A stretch of 22,594 nucleotides of DNA from a virus. The DNA is taken from positions 1-22,594 of IMG/VR virus record IMGVR_UViG_3300042696_000035. The stretch is one strand, 5' to 3'. The position numbers and the translations under genes are program-made. The notes beneath the pieces were generated by a model. The model had not been told where the DNA came from, did not search any database, and saw nothing but the letters and a program-made list of their open reading frames with translations. This document shows positions 2,847 to 21,403 of this stretch, one piece after another. Position 1 is the first letter of the stretch; the number at the start of each line of letters is the position of its first letter.

Positions 2847-5177
2847 CTATGTGTTGGTATCGTCATATTTGACAACAAAGGCTACCATCGTTATTTCGTC
2901 CGTAACAGTTGCTTCCCCTGTTAGCTTTAGCGTAACGTTTCCCGACAACGTTTCAGCAGGTGTCGTGTAAGAGCTAAAGACCGCTACTCCTGCATTGTAG
3001 ATGCAGTAGGCCCTTTGTGTTGCTGCTCCAGTTCGCCAAATCCGTCCAGTAAAAACAATGTCAGCGGATATTCCACCACTACCATTGTAGGTAATGAGCG
3101 TGGTTGCACCGTATTTAACACGAACGGTTTTGGCGTTGCCACTTCCTGTCAAATGGACAATCGCCTCAAAAGAAACGCTCATGGCGTTGTTATTCAGCGT
3201 ATTGCCTGGGATGGAATAGGTCATGAGGTCATCTTCACCAGTTCCTACGTTCCCCACCGTCGTGACGCTTGCATACAACACACCACCCACCGCTGCATCG
3301 TTGGAACTGTTACCCGCTTTGACACCAAGCAGACTCGCACCCACACTGGTCAGGTCGCCCACCTGAATCTTGCCGTCATTGAAGATAGTCAGGCGAACCT
3401 TGCGTGTGCTGCCATTAGTACCAGTAATAAAAGAAATTAGAGCAGGAACTGCCCCGCTACTTGGCGAGCCATCGACAAATGCCTCAATCACAGCGGGTAA
3501 CTGGGATGCCGAACCATCGTAACCCTTAAAACCAACCCCTCCAAGACTGTCGCCATCAGCAACAGCACTTGGACTCGAAAAGTTGTTTCTCGCTCTACCT
3601 ACGATGAACAGACTGCGAACAGCAGAGTTTGAGGCAGTAAAGGCTGAGATTACGCCACCAGATGTATTGTTGATAACGATATTATCTGTTGAAGCGTGCA
3701 GGTCAGTCGCTGCATCTCCCACTTGCAACGGATGTGCTGGTGAGGTGGTAGTTAGTCCAAGTCGATTGTTAGCCTCATCATAGGCAGATGTACCAAATAA
3801 TATCTTGCCTTTTGTGGCGTGCGCCGTACTCATCAAGGTGAGGTTGCCGCCAGATGCCGTGTCGCCTTTGGCGGTTTGTCCTCCACTGCGCCCTGCCAAG
3901 AGCAAATAGAGGGTTGCCGTCTCAATAATCGTTGTCAATTGCGCTGCGCTGAGTGCGGTTGGCACACCCGTTCCCGCCGCTGATGCTCGCCCAATCACGG
4001 TAGCCTGCGCCAGGTCTGCCATTTTAGCCAGCGTAACAGCAGCATCGGCAATGCCCCCTGTTGCCACTGTACCCCATCCCAGATTCCCACCTTGCTCACG
4101 CAACACCTGGTCAGAGCCGGAGGCTGTCGCCATATCTACAGGGTCGCCAGAGACACCAAGGTTATTCACCTTAACCGTCAGAGCAGCCATATTAGCCAAT
4201 TTGGCATTGGTTACCGCATCGTTGGCGATGCCAGCAGTTGCGATAGTGCCAAAGCCAAGCGCACTGCCACTCTCACGCAGAACCGCCCCACTAGCAGCAG
4301 TAGCAGATATATCGGCAGGGTCGCCACTCGAATTTGCAGACCTGCCGATTACCGATAATGCGCCACTGTCACGTAACTTGGCGTTTGTAATGCTGTTGTC
4401 AGTAACAATATTCGCAAACGTATAAATGGTATCAAAATACGTTTTCAAAAATGCCTTGATATTAGTATAGGTAACACGCTTAAATACATTACTTGCTGCA
4501 CTGTCCACAATCACAGCACTATCAGCATCAATAGGCGGGTTCTTAGCAGTAAGAGTGGAGATATTGGTGGAGTCAAGAGTTTTGTTTGTGAGCGTAGCTG
4601 CCAAGCTATTGTAGTAGGTGGCAAAGGTTGATTTTATAATCGACCAAGCGGTCTTTTTGAGCGTGCTGCCTGTTGTGTACCCGAAGGTATCGGTATCGTC
4701 AATCGTATCGTCTGTAGTGGCAGCATTGAGAGTCGCCCCTACTGCCTCTGGAATGCTTTGGCTATTTACCCAGGCCACACCGTTCCATACGGGAATATCT
4801 CCTGCTGTCTTTGTGCCAAAGGTCGTATCTGAATGGCTCCCAAGAGCATGAGCAGGAGTTCCACTTGGGTCTGAGGGAGGGTTTGCTCCCAGGTCTTGCC
4901 GACCAGCATAACCGTAGATAACGTAGACGCCATACTCCAGCTTCATTCGCACATTTAATCGGGGGGCATGGGGAAGACCAGCGTCGTTTCTGGCTGCAAC
5001 AGTGGTTTGCGCCCCATCGACAGAGCGAATAGTGACATAGACAAAGGTGCTGCGACCAGGAACCACGAATAGGTAGCTGCCATCAGGGGAGAGTTTCCCC
5101 ATTTTGCCAAACACCCACTGCTGTTCTTCTCTCCTTTTCCACCAACCGTTAAAAGAGTTCTTAAGCCTTTCGCTCAC
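2847..5177 (-). CDS. Tail fibre / receptor-binding protein
   Basis: This encodes 776 aa from GTG at 5177, preceded by GGAGGA. The frame extends to a TTG at 5195, but the GTG overlaps the upstream stop in TAGTG and has better spacing. The first 110 residues are the probable attachment domain. Residues about 255-410 hold roughly 58-residue repeats with 'NAKL', 'VIGRS', 'VLRE.G..LG.GT(I/V)AT.GI' typical of trimeric fibre shafts. Residues 460-615 ('RLGLTTTSPAHPLQVGD', 'GVGFKGYDGS', 'FNDGKIQVG') resemble the knob region that in many fibres precedes an S74 self-cleaving chaperone. Here that chaperone is not evident, and the protein ends in about 140 residues of beta-sandwich-like sequence ('LMTYSIPGNTLN', 'VTDEITMVAFVVKY'). 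It probably binds the host surface. Confidence 0.8.
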   Translation of the reverse strand: MSERLKNSFNGWWKRREEQQWVFGKMGKLSPDGSYLFVVPGRSTFVYVTIRSVDGAQTTVAARNDAGLPHAPRLNVRMKLEYGVYVIYGYAGRQDLGANPPSDPSGTPAHALGSHSDTTFGTKTAGDIPVWNGVAWVNSQSIPEAVGATLNAATTDDTIDDTDTFGYTTGSTLKKTAWSIIKSTFATYYNSLAATLTNKTLDSTNISTLTAKNPPIDADSAVIVDSAASNVFKRVTYTNIKAFLKTYFDTIYTFANIVTDNSITNAKLRDSGALSVIGRSANSSGDPADISATAASGAVLRESGSALGFGTIATAGIANDAVTNAKLANMAALTVKVNNLGVSGDPVDMATASGSDQVLREQGGNLGWGTVATGGIADAAVTLAKMADLAQATVIGRASAAGTGVPTALSAAQLTTIIETATLYLLLAGRSGGQTAKGDTASGGNLTLMSTAHATKGKILFGTSAYDEANNRLGLTTTSPAHPLQVGDAATDLHASTDNIVINNTSGGVISAFTASNSAVRSLFIVGRARNNFSSPSAVADGDSLGGVGFKGYDGSASQLPAVIEAFVDGSPSSGAVPALISFITGTNGSTRKVRLTIFNDGKIQVGDLTSVGASLLGVKAGNSSNDAAVGGVLYASVTTVGNVGTGEDDLMTYSIPGNTLNNNAMSVSFEAIVHLTGSGNAKTVRVKYGATTLITYNGSGGISADIVFTGRIWRTGAATQRAYCIYNAGVAVFSSYTTPAETLSGNVTLKLTGEATVTDEITMVAFVVKYDDTNT

Positions 5178-8100
5178 TAGCTTGGTCCTCCACAAATTCC
5201 AATCGTCTTGGTTGCGCTTAGGCTGCTGAGATTGCCTGCTCTGGAATCAAGGGTTGCGCCATTATCATCACTAAAAGAAACGTATTGCGCTGGTCCCCAG
5301 ATGAGAACAGTGCCGTCTAAGCTGCCGCCAAAAGCAGCTTGGTAGGGAACCGTTCCCGTAGTTGGGGCAACCACCGCTGACCAGGTATCTCCTGCGTCAC
5401 TTGAGAAATAAACCCCTTGCTTATCTCCGCTGCTACTGGCACTAGCGTCATTACCAGTTACAGCAGCAAGCACCAGGTTCCTGTCTGAGTCATGGCAGCG
5501 AACGGAGAAATGGCCTGCATTCACACCGTAGTCTTTGGAACCATCGTTCGGGGAAACGTCGTCTACAGTACCGGCAACCGCACGGATAAGAGCAAACTGA
5601 CGGTTGCCTGTGCGGTCTAATTGTCCACTGTAGAAGACGTCTTCGGCGTCATTGTTTTCCCAAGGAAGGTGTATCTCACCTGCCATGCCGTTGAGAGGGA
5701 CGATAGTCCCTGGGGCAGTTGGCACATAGGTTGTGCCGTCATCTAAGACAATCTCAGTGACGGTTAATGAAAGAGAAGCACTGGCAACATAGCTAATCGT
5801 AGCATTAGACTGGATGGATATACGAAAATAGATAGCAAAATCAGAATCAGCAGGAGAAGGGTCAGCTTCGATAATATCTCGATTATCAGGCCAATCATGC
5901 GCTACATAGTCTGAGAAATCGTACTGGAAAACAAAGCTGCGAGAATAGTCCTGGCTATCTCCAGTCAACCCATTATTCGTATCTGAGATTGTTGTGCGAG
6001 TGACAAATGTGCCATTCTTGAAGAAGGAAAAGCTATAACCAGTAGCGCCAAAGCCATGATTCTCATGATAGCCCTGGAAAGTTCCAGCAATCGTTATTCT
6101 CTTTGCGTTAGCAGGAGGAGAAATGCCCAAAGAATCGGCATACTGGACAGTCGCACCAGGAGTTCCGCTACTTGAACGTGAGATGCTGGCACTTGGTCTT
6201 CTGGCAAGCTCAGTATAAGCGTGAGTGGTGGTGGTTGTATCGTTTGTATCTATAAACTGTCCAAAGGTAGGCAAGGGATAACTTGGGTTTTCGCTATTGC
6301 TAATCTGTGTCCATGTAGCACCCCAGTCAGTGGTGATGTAGGGCAAAGCGGTAGCGGGATTCGCAGTTGCGGAATGGGCAATCGTATAACCCAAACCAGG
6401 CGTCTTGGGGCTGCAATACAAACCAATCGGATTGATAGCCCCACCGCTATCGTAACTGGCACTGATTAAAACCTCATCCGCCCAAGTGACTCCACCATCT
6501 AAACTGTAAGTCGCATAGGTTCCTGTATGTCCCACAGCAGAACCATAATAGGAAACGCAAATCAACCAAGGGTTTAGGCCGGAGGAGAAGTAAGTTCCAA
6601 AGCTGGCCTGAATCGTTCTCCATTGCGCTGTGGTGGCAAACTCGACAATCGCATTGACCACAACGGTTCCGAAAATATCACTGACACGGTAGACGTTATC
6701 CGCTGTAGCAACGAAACCGTTAACCGCCCCACTGCCGCTTACATAAGCAGGGCTAAACGGGTCAACCGCCCAAGTGAGAATCTCCTCTGAGCCGGTTATG
6801 TTTACGGTTGCCCAGGTTGGCCCACCTGAGCCGCTAGGAGTCGTGAAATCAGTTGTGCGGTAAATGTCATACTGGCCGATGAGCGCAACCAGGTCTTGAG
6901 AGGGAGTAAGCCCCGAATCTGGAGGCGGAATAACAACCACTGGTTCATAGCCAACCGGCTCAGTGTCATCTGGGATATGGGTAGTCGCAGGGTAGCCGGA
7001 TTCCTCTTTGGTAAAATTAACCTGTACCTTAATCGCAGAACCCCGCTTATCCGTAGTGTAGGTTGCCTGAACAGACTCAATCATCCCATAGGCGGTTGTA
7101 AATGGAATCTCCCGAAACGGCGCATAGGTTGATGCCCAAGACAGGGATACCCGATTGAAAAGCGCAGGTTCGTAATCCCAAAAGAGGCTGCGAGTCGGGT
7201 CGGTGAAGCTGAAGCTCCCCCAGTAAGAGTTCAGCATCGCCCATCTGTGGCCTTCACACAGATTCAAGGCGGTTTGGCTAATAGCCAGTCCTTCATTTTC
7301 TGCCTGTTCAGTTGGCCCCTGTCCAAAAGCAGCGGTATCCCCAGGCGCAACCGAAAAGATAAGCGGAAGAGTGTCCTCTCCGTTTACGGTTATCCAGTCT
7401 GTAGAAACCTGAACAGCCCCAGAGCGCAAAACATGGTATTTGGGATGGCGATTATATTCGACGCTTAACTCATTCCAGTAGCTTTCGGTAATCGCTACAG
7501 CAACCGCTGGCCTATCGGCTACATCGTCAAGCCTCCAGTCTCTCTGGATATTGATTTGCCCCTTGCTATTGACCGCAACGTAATGGTCGGGAACCACCTT
7601 CTGAGCCATGTCAGCGACTTGCTGGAACAGGGTATTCGCTCCACCATCCAGCCTCATCGTATCGTAATCGGCCAAATCGGATGGAAAGAAGTAATCCGCA
7701 ATTCCCAAAGCGGTGCTGTGCCAAAACAACAGATACCAAAGAGCCTTTGCCATATCCAGGCTAGGCATATATGACCAAGGGGAAATCGGATTGCCATGTG
7801 CATCCAGTTCTTCGGAACGATAGAGGGCCTGGGCAAAACCAGGGAGCATGTTTAACCAACCGCCTATATCGCTGGCATGAAGAGTGGTTGTGCGCTTAAT
7901 GCCTAGTTTACTTCTGCCGATTGAATAGCTTTCAGTATCCAACCAGCCAAAGAACTTGATATGGCTTCTATCGGTGGCAGAGGAAGGCTCATCCCACCAA
8001 AAGAGAACCAGGGTTCCGTCTGGATAGGCGGTTCTGCTGAGGTTCTCATAAATTACCAGTTCCAGGGTTTGCCCCTGTCTTTGGAGGCTTTGCTGAACCT

Positions 8101-8839
8101 GGTAATTCGTTATTCTTGGGTCGTTTAGGGCATCAGTGTCAATCGCCAGTACAAAGCATCTTGCGGTATGCGATTTGCCGTTGCTATCGGTGACCGTAAG
8201 CGATACCCAGTAGCTTCCAGGCTCAAAGGTTGCGGTGATAACCGCACTGGCAGAAGTACCAACCGTAATCGTGCCACCGTCCACGTCCCAAGCATAGGTG
8301 CTAATCGTCGCCCCATCCGCCATCGCATAGCTTAGGTCTGCGCCACCTGCAGGAAATTGAACGGTAAGAAGCCCAGTGCCAGAGTCGACCATCCCCGCTG
8401 TGGATGGCCCAGTATTCGCCACAGGGGGTAACTTCGTATTAAAGTCGCCAACCTCAACCGTGCCATCCTTATAGTCTGTGCCAGTGCCATTGTCGGAGAA
8501 GAATGGTATCTTAGCCCAAGGACGGTAATCCTTAAGCACCGTAATATAAGCGTTATCCTGCACGTCCAAAAGCCCATCCTGAGTACCCCTGCTCGTCCTA
8601 GGCAAGGGAAGAGTGGCTGAGCCTGGGGTTCCCTTTACCCTGGTTCTACCTAAGTCGTCCCCACCCTCTGTGCTTCCTAAGAGAACCGTCATATCCTCAA
8701 GAATATCGGTGTATGCGCCAAGAGTCACGTTATCAAAGCTGATAGACGTGAGAGGGTAGCTGATTAAGGCCATATCCACCCTGGCTTTGAAAACAGCAAC
8801 CGGCGTATGAAGATAGAGGCTAGGATTTGGATTAAACAC
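5177..8839 (-). CDS. Tail-tip hub protein with PKD domain and Asp-box repeats
   Basis: This encodes 1220 aa. The GTG at 8839 directly follows the previous stop (TAAGTG), with GAGGAA as ribosome site. The N-terminal 130 residues and residues about 240-620 look like a tail-tip or baseplate hub. Between them, about 158-232, is a PKD-type Ig-like module ('ISTYAWDVDGGT', 'FEPGSYWVSLTVTDSNG'). After a Pro-rich linker, residues 660-1220 contain Asp-box motifs SLDGGVTW (779-786), TTDWGATW (836-843), SSDAGDTW (1146-1153) and a weaker SDDNGATL (1190-1197). Together these indicate a beta-propeller of the sialidase/BNR type. A beta-rich insertion (about 868-1045) splits the propeller. Likely function is host-surface recognition at the tail tip. 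Glycosidase activity is not shown, because Asp boxes are structural. Its length and gene order after the tape measure fit a Tal-like protein. Confidence 0.75.
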   Translation of the reverse strand: MFNPNPSLYLHTPVAVFKARVDMALISYPLTSISFDNVTLGAYTDILEDMTVLLGSTEGGDDLGRTRVKGTPGSATLPLPRTSRGTQDGLLDVQDNAYITVLKDYRPWAKIPFFSDNGTGTDYKDGTVEVGDFNTKLPPVANTGPSTAGMVDSGTGLLTVQFPAGGADLSYAMADGATISTYAWDVDGGTITVGTSASAVITATFEPGSYWVSLTVTDSNGKSHTARCFVLAIDTDALNDPRITNYQVQQSLQRQGQTLELVIYENLSRTAYPDGTLVLFWWDEPSSATDRSHIKFFGWLDTESYSIGRSKLGIKRTTTLHASDIGGWLNMLPGFAQALYRSEELDAHGNPISPWSYMPSLDMAKALWYLLFWHSTALGIADYFFPSDLADYDTMRLDGGANTLFQQVADMAQKVVPDHYVAVNSKGQINIQRDWRLDDVADRPAVAVAITESYWNELSVEYNRHPKYHVLRSGAVQVSTDWITVNGEDTLPLIFSVAPGDTAAFGQGPTEQAENEGLAISQTALNLCEGHRWAMLNSYWGSFSFTDPTRSLFWDYEPALFNRVSLSWASTYAPFREIPFTTAYGMIESVQATYTTDKRGSAIKVQVNFTKEESGYPATTHIPDDTEPVGYEPVVVIPPPDSGLTPSQDLVALIGQYDIYRTTDFTTPSGSGGPTWATVNITGSEEILTWAVDPFSPAYVSGSGAVNGFVATADNVYRVSDIFGTVVVNAIVEFATTAQWRTIQASFGTYFSSGLNPWLICVSYYGSAVGHTGTYATYSLDGGVTWADEVLISASYDSGGAINPIGLYCSPKTPGLGYTIAHSATANPATALPYITTDWGATWTQISNSENPSYPLPTFGQFIDTNDTTTTTHAYTELARRPSASISRSSSGTPGATVQYADSLGISPPANAKRITIAGTFQGYHENHGFGATGYSFSFFKNGTFVTRTTISDTNNGLTGDSQDYSRSFVFQYDFSDYVAHDWPDNRDIIEADPSPADSDFAIYFRISIQSNATISYVASASLSLTVTEIVLDDGTTYVPTAPGTIVPLNGMAGEIHLPWENNDAEDVFYSGQLDRTGNRQFALIRAVAGTVDDVSPNDGSKDYGVNAGHFSVRCHDSDRNLVLAAVTGNDASASSSGDKQGVYFSSDAGDTWSAVVAPTTGTVPYQAAFGGSLDGTVLIWGPAQYVSFSDDNGATLDSRAGNLSSLSATKTIGICGGPS

Positions 8840-20407: not shown

Positions 20408-20857
20408 TTAGTTGTTGCTAGCCGAAACTTGATACCAGTTTGTACCATCACTGTAGAAAGTGGCGGCATCATATTGCCCCAAAGCTACATTGCCAGCACT
20501 TTTCAAGTGAGTAGTCTCGGTAATCGTAATCGTGTTACTACCCACGTTAATCAGTGTTAGAACCGTCCCCGCTGGCTTAATCACAACACGCTCACCCGAT
20601 ACACCTACTGGAGTTGTGGCCGTAAGCCTTTGGTAAGTACCTGTAGATGTGATAAACAGCGGATTCGTAATCGTACCAACTGAGGTAAACGCAATTGCGG
20701 TTCTGGGTTGCGCCCGATAGAAGTTCGTAACCCGCAAGTTTGCGAACCCAGTCACACCCCCTTGAGCTTGACTAGGAGCCGCAATCGCAAAAAATAAAAA
20801 TGCCAACATACAAACAGCCGCACCTACAAAGCCGCCAAAGGTCATTAACTTTCGCAT
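20408..20857 (-). CDS. Exported beta-rich protein with Sec signal peptide
   Basis: This encodes 149 aa. Residues 1-31 form a classical signal peptide: MRK, a hydrophobic core at about 10-27, and a cleavage motif S29-Q30-A31 before Q32. The mature part is beta-rich and polar ('TITNPLFITSTGTYQRLTA', 'VLTLINVGSNTITITETT', 'ALGQYDAATFYSDGTNWYQV'). The last stretch has the look of phage structural or fibre domains. It lies eight nt after the 59-aa gene with GGAGGGGAGATG as start context. A secreted protein inside the head operon is unusual. A decoration protein, cell-surface protein or exclusion factor are possible roles, none proven. Confidence 0.65.
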   Translation of the reverse strand: MRKLMTFGGFVGAAVCMLAFLFFAIAAPSQAQGGVTGFANLRVTNFYRAQPRTAIAFTSVGTITNPLFITSTGTYQRLTATTPVGVSGERVVIKPAGTVLTLINVGSNTITITETTHLKSAGNVALGQYDAATFYSDGTNWYQVSASNN

Positions 20858-20865
20858 CTCCCCTC

Positions 20866-21045
20866 CTAACTGTTCCAGTTGACGTAAGCGATAACCCCAC
20901 CACTGGTATTGTGGAGATACTTGTTCAAGCGGTCAAGCATTTTGCGAACCCGCTTATCGCTGACTTCCTCTTCCAGCTTCACAAAAAGCTCGTTGATTTC
21001 AGCTACGGTTTCTGCGGTAATCGCTCCCCCATAGGCATGTGGCAT
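20866..21045 (-). CDS. Small helical protein of unknown function
   Basis: This encodes 59 aa from ATG 21045, which has ACGGAGG upstream. The open frame runs to 21108 but lacks a ribosome site there. The sequence is 'MPHAYGGAITAETVAEINEL' followed by two amphipathic helices ('KLEEEVSDKRVRKMLDRLNK') and a short tail 'GGVIAYVNWNS'. It has no hydrophobic segment, unlike its neighbours on either side. The start is one base after the stop of the 30-aa gene. Perhaps a cytoplasmic partner of the flanking membrane proteins or a small head protein. No family recognised. Confidence 0.5.
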   Translation of the reverse strand: MPHAYGGAITAETVAEINELFVKLEEEVSDKRVRKMLDRLNKYLHNTSGGVIAYVNWNS

Positions 21046-21046
21046 G

Positions 21047-21139
21047 TTAGCCTCCGTAGCCCTGCGGGGCAGAAGCAGCAAGGACAAAGACCGCAATGGC
21101 CGCAACAAACAAGATATACTTCCAGTTCACAGATTTCAT
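21047..21139 (-). CDS. 30-aa single-pass membrane micropeptide
   Basis: The reading frame runs from ATG 21139 to TAA 21047-21049. GGAGG lies five bases before the start, a very clear ribosome site. The peptide has a short charged N-terminus (MKSVNWK), a hydrophobic stretch 'YILFVAAIAVFVLAASA' and the tail 'PQGYGG'. It is one base before the next start. It could be a membrane-anchored micropeptide or a signal-like leader. Its position between two other exported products argues that it is real. Confidence 0.55.
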   Translation of the reverse strand: MKSVNWKYILFVAAIAVFVLAASAPQGYGG

Positions 21140-21148
21140 CTTTGCCTC

Positions 21149-21403
21149 CTAATTTGGCAATGGAGCAATAAAACCAGCATCATTAGCAATAAACTCATGA
21201 CCATACCCATCGAAACAATGAGACACGTTCCAGTTGCCAACCTTGCCCACAACCTCACAGCCAGGTTGTTGCTGTTTGGAAACAGAAGCAGCATAGGCGA
21301 CTTGCGGTGACGCAATCTGGGCATATATACCAGCACCCATTAACCCGCCATAAAGAATGCCACCCAGAATTGCAACAATGCCCCACAATTCCTTTTTTAT
21401 CAT
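21149..21403 (-). CDS. Small membrane-anchored or secreted protein
   Basis: This encodes 84 aa from ATG 21403, close after the protease stop. The frame is open upstream to 21601, but that part is a shadow of the protease. Residues MIKK precede a hydrophobic segment (about 7-30, 'WGIVAILGGILYGGLMGAGI'). 'SPQVAYAAS' may hold a cleavage site. The remainder carries two cysteines (C49, C63) that could form a disulfide outside the cytoplasm ('CEVVGKVGNWNVSHC'). The ribosome site is weak (TAAGG very near the ATG), so it probably relies on coupling. Unknown function; a holin is possible but nothing specific supports it. Confidence 0.55.
   Translation of the reverse strand: MIKKELWGIVAILGGILYGGLMGAGIYAQIASPQVAYAASVSKQQQPGCEVVGKVGNWNVSHCFDGYGHEFIANDAGFIAPLPN

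Follow-up and report, generated by a model that had tools for sequence, protein, structure and literature searches.

Superinfection exclusion lipoproteins such as Llp of phage T5 and the T1-type Cor are small, phage-encoded and exported or lipidated proteins that stop adsorption to infected cells and to debris. Llp is the precedent for a small exported phage protein acting in exclusion; according to its authors, the purpose of exclusion proteins is to stop adsorption to doomed cells and debris, and Llp-like proteins are produced early (PMC9586334). Here we describe a 149-aa product encoded in the window, by which we mean the whole stretch of DNA analysed, an IMG/VR virus record of 22,594 bases. 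This protein is likewise small, phage-encoded and of the export type, but it differs from Llp and Cor in that it has no family match, a fibre-type fold, a position in the head operon and no lipobox cysteine in the window copy (some relatives have one), and an exclusion activity is putative.

Two kinds of virion protein are similar in their C-terminal part. The capsid spike of Pseudomonas phage Pa223 (PDB 9ny6), a virion protein of the head surface, has a similar C-terminal beta-sandwich, but shares 12-15% identity with the 149-aa protein and is not found by sequence search. The C-terminal domain of tailspike depolymerases (Phage_depo_C, PF25692), as in the tail-spike type proteins of loci L034-L052, has the same DGTNW..SxN ending, but the 149-aa protein possesses no enzymatic domain and no tail position, and has an export signal added. 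The novelty is the combination of an export signal with a known kind of fibre domain and a known gene neighbourhood.

The head operon and its four small genes

The head operon lies on the minus strand in the order protease-like gene, genes for products of 84, 30, 59 and 149 aa, cement-like gene and major capsid protein (MCP) gene (Table 1). The four open reading frames that the original prediction had placed between protease and cement are all present, in the order and with the properties described, on the minus strand from 21403 to 20408. All four look coding: their in-frame codon usage exceeds each of 500 shuffles as well as that of their other frames. The gaps from stop to next start measure a few bases, and a strong Shine-Dalgarno (SD) site precedes each of the 30-, 59- and 149-aa genes, whereas that of the 84-aa gene is weak. 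For the 59-aa gene the list of open reading frames gives an 80-aa frame with a TTG start; the ATG at 21045 is preceded by GGAGG.

Table 1. Head operon genes of the window and parts of the 149-aa protein.
Feature	Position	Strand	Remark
Head maturation protease-like protein, 393 aa	21408..22589	-	named by synteny; HK97 proheadase match only sub-threshold
Small protein, 84 aa, signal-peptide-like N-terminus, two Cys	21149..21403	-	no relative found
Membrane micropeptide, 30 aa	21047..21139	-	no relative found
Soluble protein, 59 aa	20866..21045	-	no relative found
Exported fibre-type protein (predicted), 149 aa	20408..20857	-	main finding; SD TTAGGAGGGGAG ahead of ATG
Sec-type signal peptide (predicted), residues 1-31, MRKLMTFGGFVGAAVCMLAFLFFAIAAPSQA	20765..20857	-	predicted cleavage A31/Q32, before Q32
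C-terminal tip domain (predicted), residues about 70-149, beta-sandwich, end DGTNWYQVSASNN	20411..20650	-	AlphaFold2 pLDDT 88-94 from residue 91; fold matches
Cement or decoration-like protein, 141-143 aa	19970..20401	-	phrog_4588 virion structural protein, E 1.2e-5
Major capsid protein, 404 aa	18731..19945	-	phrog_3922, E 2e-58; Pfam Phage_capsid_4 above cut-off

The 84-, 30- and 59-aa genes have no counterpart in any relative's locus, the nearest (L084-L087) included, and scans of viral contigs with the 84-aa and 59-aa proteins, which reach close relatives only, returned no relative. By capsid protein identity the nearest relatives are L084 (65%), L087 (63%) and L085 (62%), all without these three genes: between protease and cement, L085 and L087 have only a homologue of the 149-aa gene, and L084 has nothing. 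The fibre gene is also kept alone, without the other three, in L003-L006, L008, L010 and L019. Conservation of the four genes as a unit, which the original prediction had raised, is therefore rejected, since only the 149-aa gene has detectable relatives. The remaining trio appears to be an addition local to the window phage.

Two large proteins are encoded in the tail region of the window. One of 782 aa (2847-5195) is related to a neighbour of the tip-domain protein in L055, and one of 1220 aa (5177-8839) contains a PKD-like domain near residues 170-225; they are likely a tail tip and fibre.

Predicted export signal and tip fold

The 149-aa protein is predicted to consist of three parts: a Sec-type signal peptide at the N-terminus, a beta-sandwich at the C-terminus and a short fibre-like segment in between. 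The Sec signal peptide proposed in the original prediction was flagged by a home-made hydropathy and charge scan, and judged by motif and hydropathy the N-terminus has a positive N-region, a hydrophobic core and an AxA-type site (MRKLM...APSQA/QGG). All 10 homologues compared have A31, and Q32 is nearly invariant among them. The signal sequences of the window protein and of its homologues in L085 and L087 diverge, but past the cleavage site they have QGGVTGFANLRVTNFYRA in common. The family is under strong purifying selection, relaxed in the signal: five close copies give an overall dN/dS of 0.10, with 0.08 for the tip and 0.07 for the shaft against 0.25 for the signal.

The AlphaFold2 prediction, based on 39 sequences, is confident over the tip domain (Table 1) and low before residue 70. 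The best structural match of the tip is the tailspike gp83 of Acinetobacter phage Solidus (24qj; E 1.6e-5, Z 10.9, 88 residues, rmsd 2.5), and 6o38 reaches Z 9.7. It also matches CBA120 TSP4, the Pa223 capsid spike (9ny6_C; Foldseek E 7e-5, VIA Z 7.8 over 102 residues, rmsd 5.5, with tailspikes scoring equal or higher) and T4 gp9/gp10 (Z about 6). Because middling Z values are common, only Solidus gp83 and 6o38 stand clear. The predicted fold says fibre or spike, and does not decide which. No PHROGs, Pfam, NCBIfam or PADLOC family names the protein; Phage_depo_C (PF25692) scores 19.6 bits, below the 25-bit Pfam gathering cut-off. A known anti-phage defence protein was rejected as a candidate, as no PADLOC family matched up to E 0.1. 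Among the papers of the library searched, none dealing with signal peptides in head fibres came up.

Homologues beside several capsid families

A profile search of viral contigs yielded 47 loci with compact and long homologues. The compact proteins, about 134-330 residues long, have an export-type N-terminus throughout, and in most an SD site lies ahead of the chosen start. Signal peptide I forms are found, for example, in the window, L003-L006, L008-L010, L019, L020, L025, L032 and L053, lipobox forms in L013, L024 and L026-L031 (LAGC/LSGC in L026-L031), and single-membrane-anchor forms in L011, L012, L014, L018, L022 and L054. In the long homologues (L034-L052) the tip domain is usually terminal; they are mostly without a signal, and many are pectate-lyase-like tail spikes by appearance.

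A home-made hydropathy classifier, which gave four likely false positives at internal starts in two other families, assigned an export-type N-terminus to 32/32 compact loci (about 25 distinct phages, since several loci represent one and the same contig or almost identical copies) versus 1/13 of the long tail-spike type, and to none of 113 homologues of seven head and connector families from the same loci (MCP, cement, protease, portal, g109, 343 and 139). A second home-made scan, covering SD-preceded genes of at least 60 aa in the related loci and the window, flagged 25 of 386 genes, mostly members of the 149-aa family. Among the isolate phages in the collection searched none has the compact protein; the sole isolate with the tip is Rhodococcus phage Peregrin, whose gene 69 (525 aa) lies between the lysin A and major tail protein genes.

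Further proteins were noted in some of these phages. L002 (3772-4239) and L088 (3843-4262) have in common a second exported-type protein (139-155 aa) in the gap between portal and protease, with the end ...SAVSASTSTITxTLRRE, and in L054, an Anaerolineales contig, a second small membrane-anchored protein (5194-5538) is encoded directly upstream of the anchored fibre.

Within the window's capsid family the fibre gene either separates protease from cement or comes after the MCP gene. It also adjoins the MCP or protease gene in phages with other capsid PHROG families, namely phrog_10 (L011, L020, L024, L078), phrog_371 (L012, L014), phrog_3990 (L022, L053, L079) and phrog_1623 (L013), and lies beside a protease-capsid fusion in L073; these families are distinct by sequence family only and may share the HK97 fold. 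The order protease-fibre-cement-MCP or MCP-fibre is found in many loci. L078, part of an integrated prophage on a 277-kb Anaerolineae contig, where it is flanked by an integrase and by cellular genes, has the order portal, protease, membrane-anchored fibre, MCP. Matches occur in 7/396 Anaerolineae genomes versus 2/241 in the phylum of L053's genome, and in 3/391 genomes in the phylum of L055's genome, where they are weak and in long frames.

In L072 (1902-4703) a 934-aa frame matches RNA-ligase and protease families in its N-terminal part and a capsid protein in its second half; the gene directly after it encodes an exported fibre-like protein. In an Anaerolineae genome, a 969-aa frame next to the fibre gene (L074, 3489-6395) has protease, Ig-like tail and major-head matches and looks like a head polyprotein.

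Since the first homologue set had been picked by the fibre itself, a second search was made with the capsid protein. Among phages with at least about 42% capsid protein identity, an exported fibre occupies the slot in L002, L005, L008, L085, L087, L088, L091, L092, L095-L097, L100, L102, L104, L105, L118 and L121, and the slot gene is absent from L084, L093, L107-L109 and L112; L094, L101 and L103 were too short to score. Other tips on the same plan are found in L002 and L096, and likewise in L072 from another capsid family. On the capsid-protein tree, a quick tree with many open forks, the type of export switches at least three times and export is mostly kept. That the signal type changes while export is mostly kept argues for membrane targeting rather than a capsid-binding peptide.

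In L089 and L106, which fall in different places on the same quick tree, a protein in the same slot after the MCP gene has no signal and starts at NFDxI, a motif that in a loose form comes after the signal in almost every exported copy, although the motif was picked post hoc and is present in 5% of background frames. The proteins of these two loci therefore share with the exported copies the slot and the start that the latter have after cleavage, but differ in having no signal and no significant profile match past the motif. The structure prediction for the L089 protein (pLDDT 47) is not usable. As to signal-less homologues, which the original prediction had brought up, a same-slot protein with the same starting motif was found, and its homology past that motif is not significant. 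Because such proteins occupy the slot in L089 and L106, a virion role is conceivable.

Possible exclusion, virion decoration and other functions

The coding gene, its export-type N-terminus, the conserved cleavage site, the predicted tip fold and the position beside head genes form the observed base for any functional reading. The most plausible function of the 149-aa product is envelope exclusion, one of the readings offered by the original prediction, and we tentatively regard it as an exported fibre that interferes with re-adsorption. A fibre-tip protein encoded with the head proteins, and probably synthesised with them late in infection, would leave the cytoplasm through Sec. The signal would be cleaved at A31/Q32, and the mature 118-residue fibre would be freed at or held near the host surface, an end that relatives may reach by a lipid anchor or a membrane helix. 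During infection the fibre would occupy the cell surface, presumably by way of the receptor, and other or newly released virions would be kept off the doomed cell or debris, which amounts to superinfection or re-adsorption exclusion. We infer actual export, late expression, receptor occupancy and exclusion from the observations named above.

Several points count against the exclusion reading. A gene in a head operon is expected to be expressed late, at odds with the early timing of Llp-type proteins. The signal-less protein in the slot of L089 and L106 likewise speaks against it, and the neighbourhood of capsid genes and the fold match with a capsid spike would fit a virion component at least equally well. 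Receptor mimicry via a domain common to the phage's own tail tip is not supported: the 10 records examined, which may be fragments, contain one tip copy each, so the phages do not copy their own tail-tip domain as a simple receptor mimic would.

A close rival to exclusion, though on balance somewhat unlikely, is that the protein is a head fibre or capsid spike that is exported and then, outside the cytoplasm, joins finished virions when the cell lyses; decoration proteins are able to bind to capsids already completed. Such a fibre fits the gene's place next to those for MCP, protease and cement across phages of several MCP families, the match to the Pa223 spike and the resemblance of the post-cleavage N-terminus to the start of the L089 and L106 proteins. 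However, lipobox and membrane-anchor forms would keep it on the host membrane, and the fold does not decide, as tail spikes and T4 gp9/gp10 match also. Retention of the fibre in the cytoplasm for assembly is not what the sequences predict: the window protein and all compact loci carry the export-type N-terminus, and only L089 and L106 are signal-less. Alternatively, the hydrophobic N-terminus might be a helix that fixes the fibre to the virion rather than an export signal. In the subgroup L005/L008/L010/L019 the N-terminal 33 residues are 58-79% identical, which is high for a signal peptide, and we counted this unusual conservation against a plain one. Nevertheless, such a helix is improbable given that another group, whose capsid proteins are homologous, has lipobox cysteines, that the N-terminal sequence is not conserved between groups, that the AxA/Q site is nearly invariant and that dN/dS is relaxed in the signal.

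A host-surface adhesin or surface modifier, which would serve the phage through its host (e.g. in the attachment of infected cells or lysogens) and would not block other phages, agrees with the layout of shaft plus tip with a lipid or membrane anchor and with the copy in an integrated prophage, but the gene lies inside the head operon rather than in a lysogeny or moron position, and we consider this function unlikely, if slightly less so than the virion helix. The lysis cassette offered by the original prediction, in which the four-gene block would encode holin, spanin or SAR-type products, accords with the hydrophobic N-termini of three of the four products. We reject it as extremely improbable: no holin, spanin or endolysin match was obtained in PHROGs, Pfam or NCBIfam, the block is not conserved, and relatives retain the fibre gene without the other three. 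The exported virion-like protein that the original prediction had also suggested is supported by the conserved predicted export signal, the tip fold common to tailspikes and a capsid spike, and the conserved head-operon position of the 149-aa product.

Returning to the exported fibre, homologues in many uncultured phages retain both the tag and the location, and these phages thus seem to have a virion-type fibre delivered to the infected cell's surface. We suggest, with some reserve, that these proteins form a widespread undescribed class of virion-type fibre tips that bear an export or lipid signal; their genes would stand next to the capsid gene, within the head module of diverse phages that infect Anaerolineae and perhaps also other hosts, and the proteins would place a fibre on the infected-cell surface instead of, or before, the virion. 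Genes of head operons are assumed to act in the cytoplasm, and a capsid-linked fibre whose export signal is conserved therefore departs from this rule. The recurrence of the pattern beside several capsid families points to a convergent or transferred trait kept by selection. For annotators, the fibre gene is a recognisable marker in phages about which little is known, Anaerolineae phages among them. If the pattern is real, these phages would decorate their capsids from outside the cell, or would display virion fibres on the host surface that control re-adsorption.
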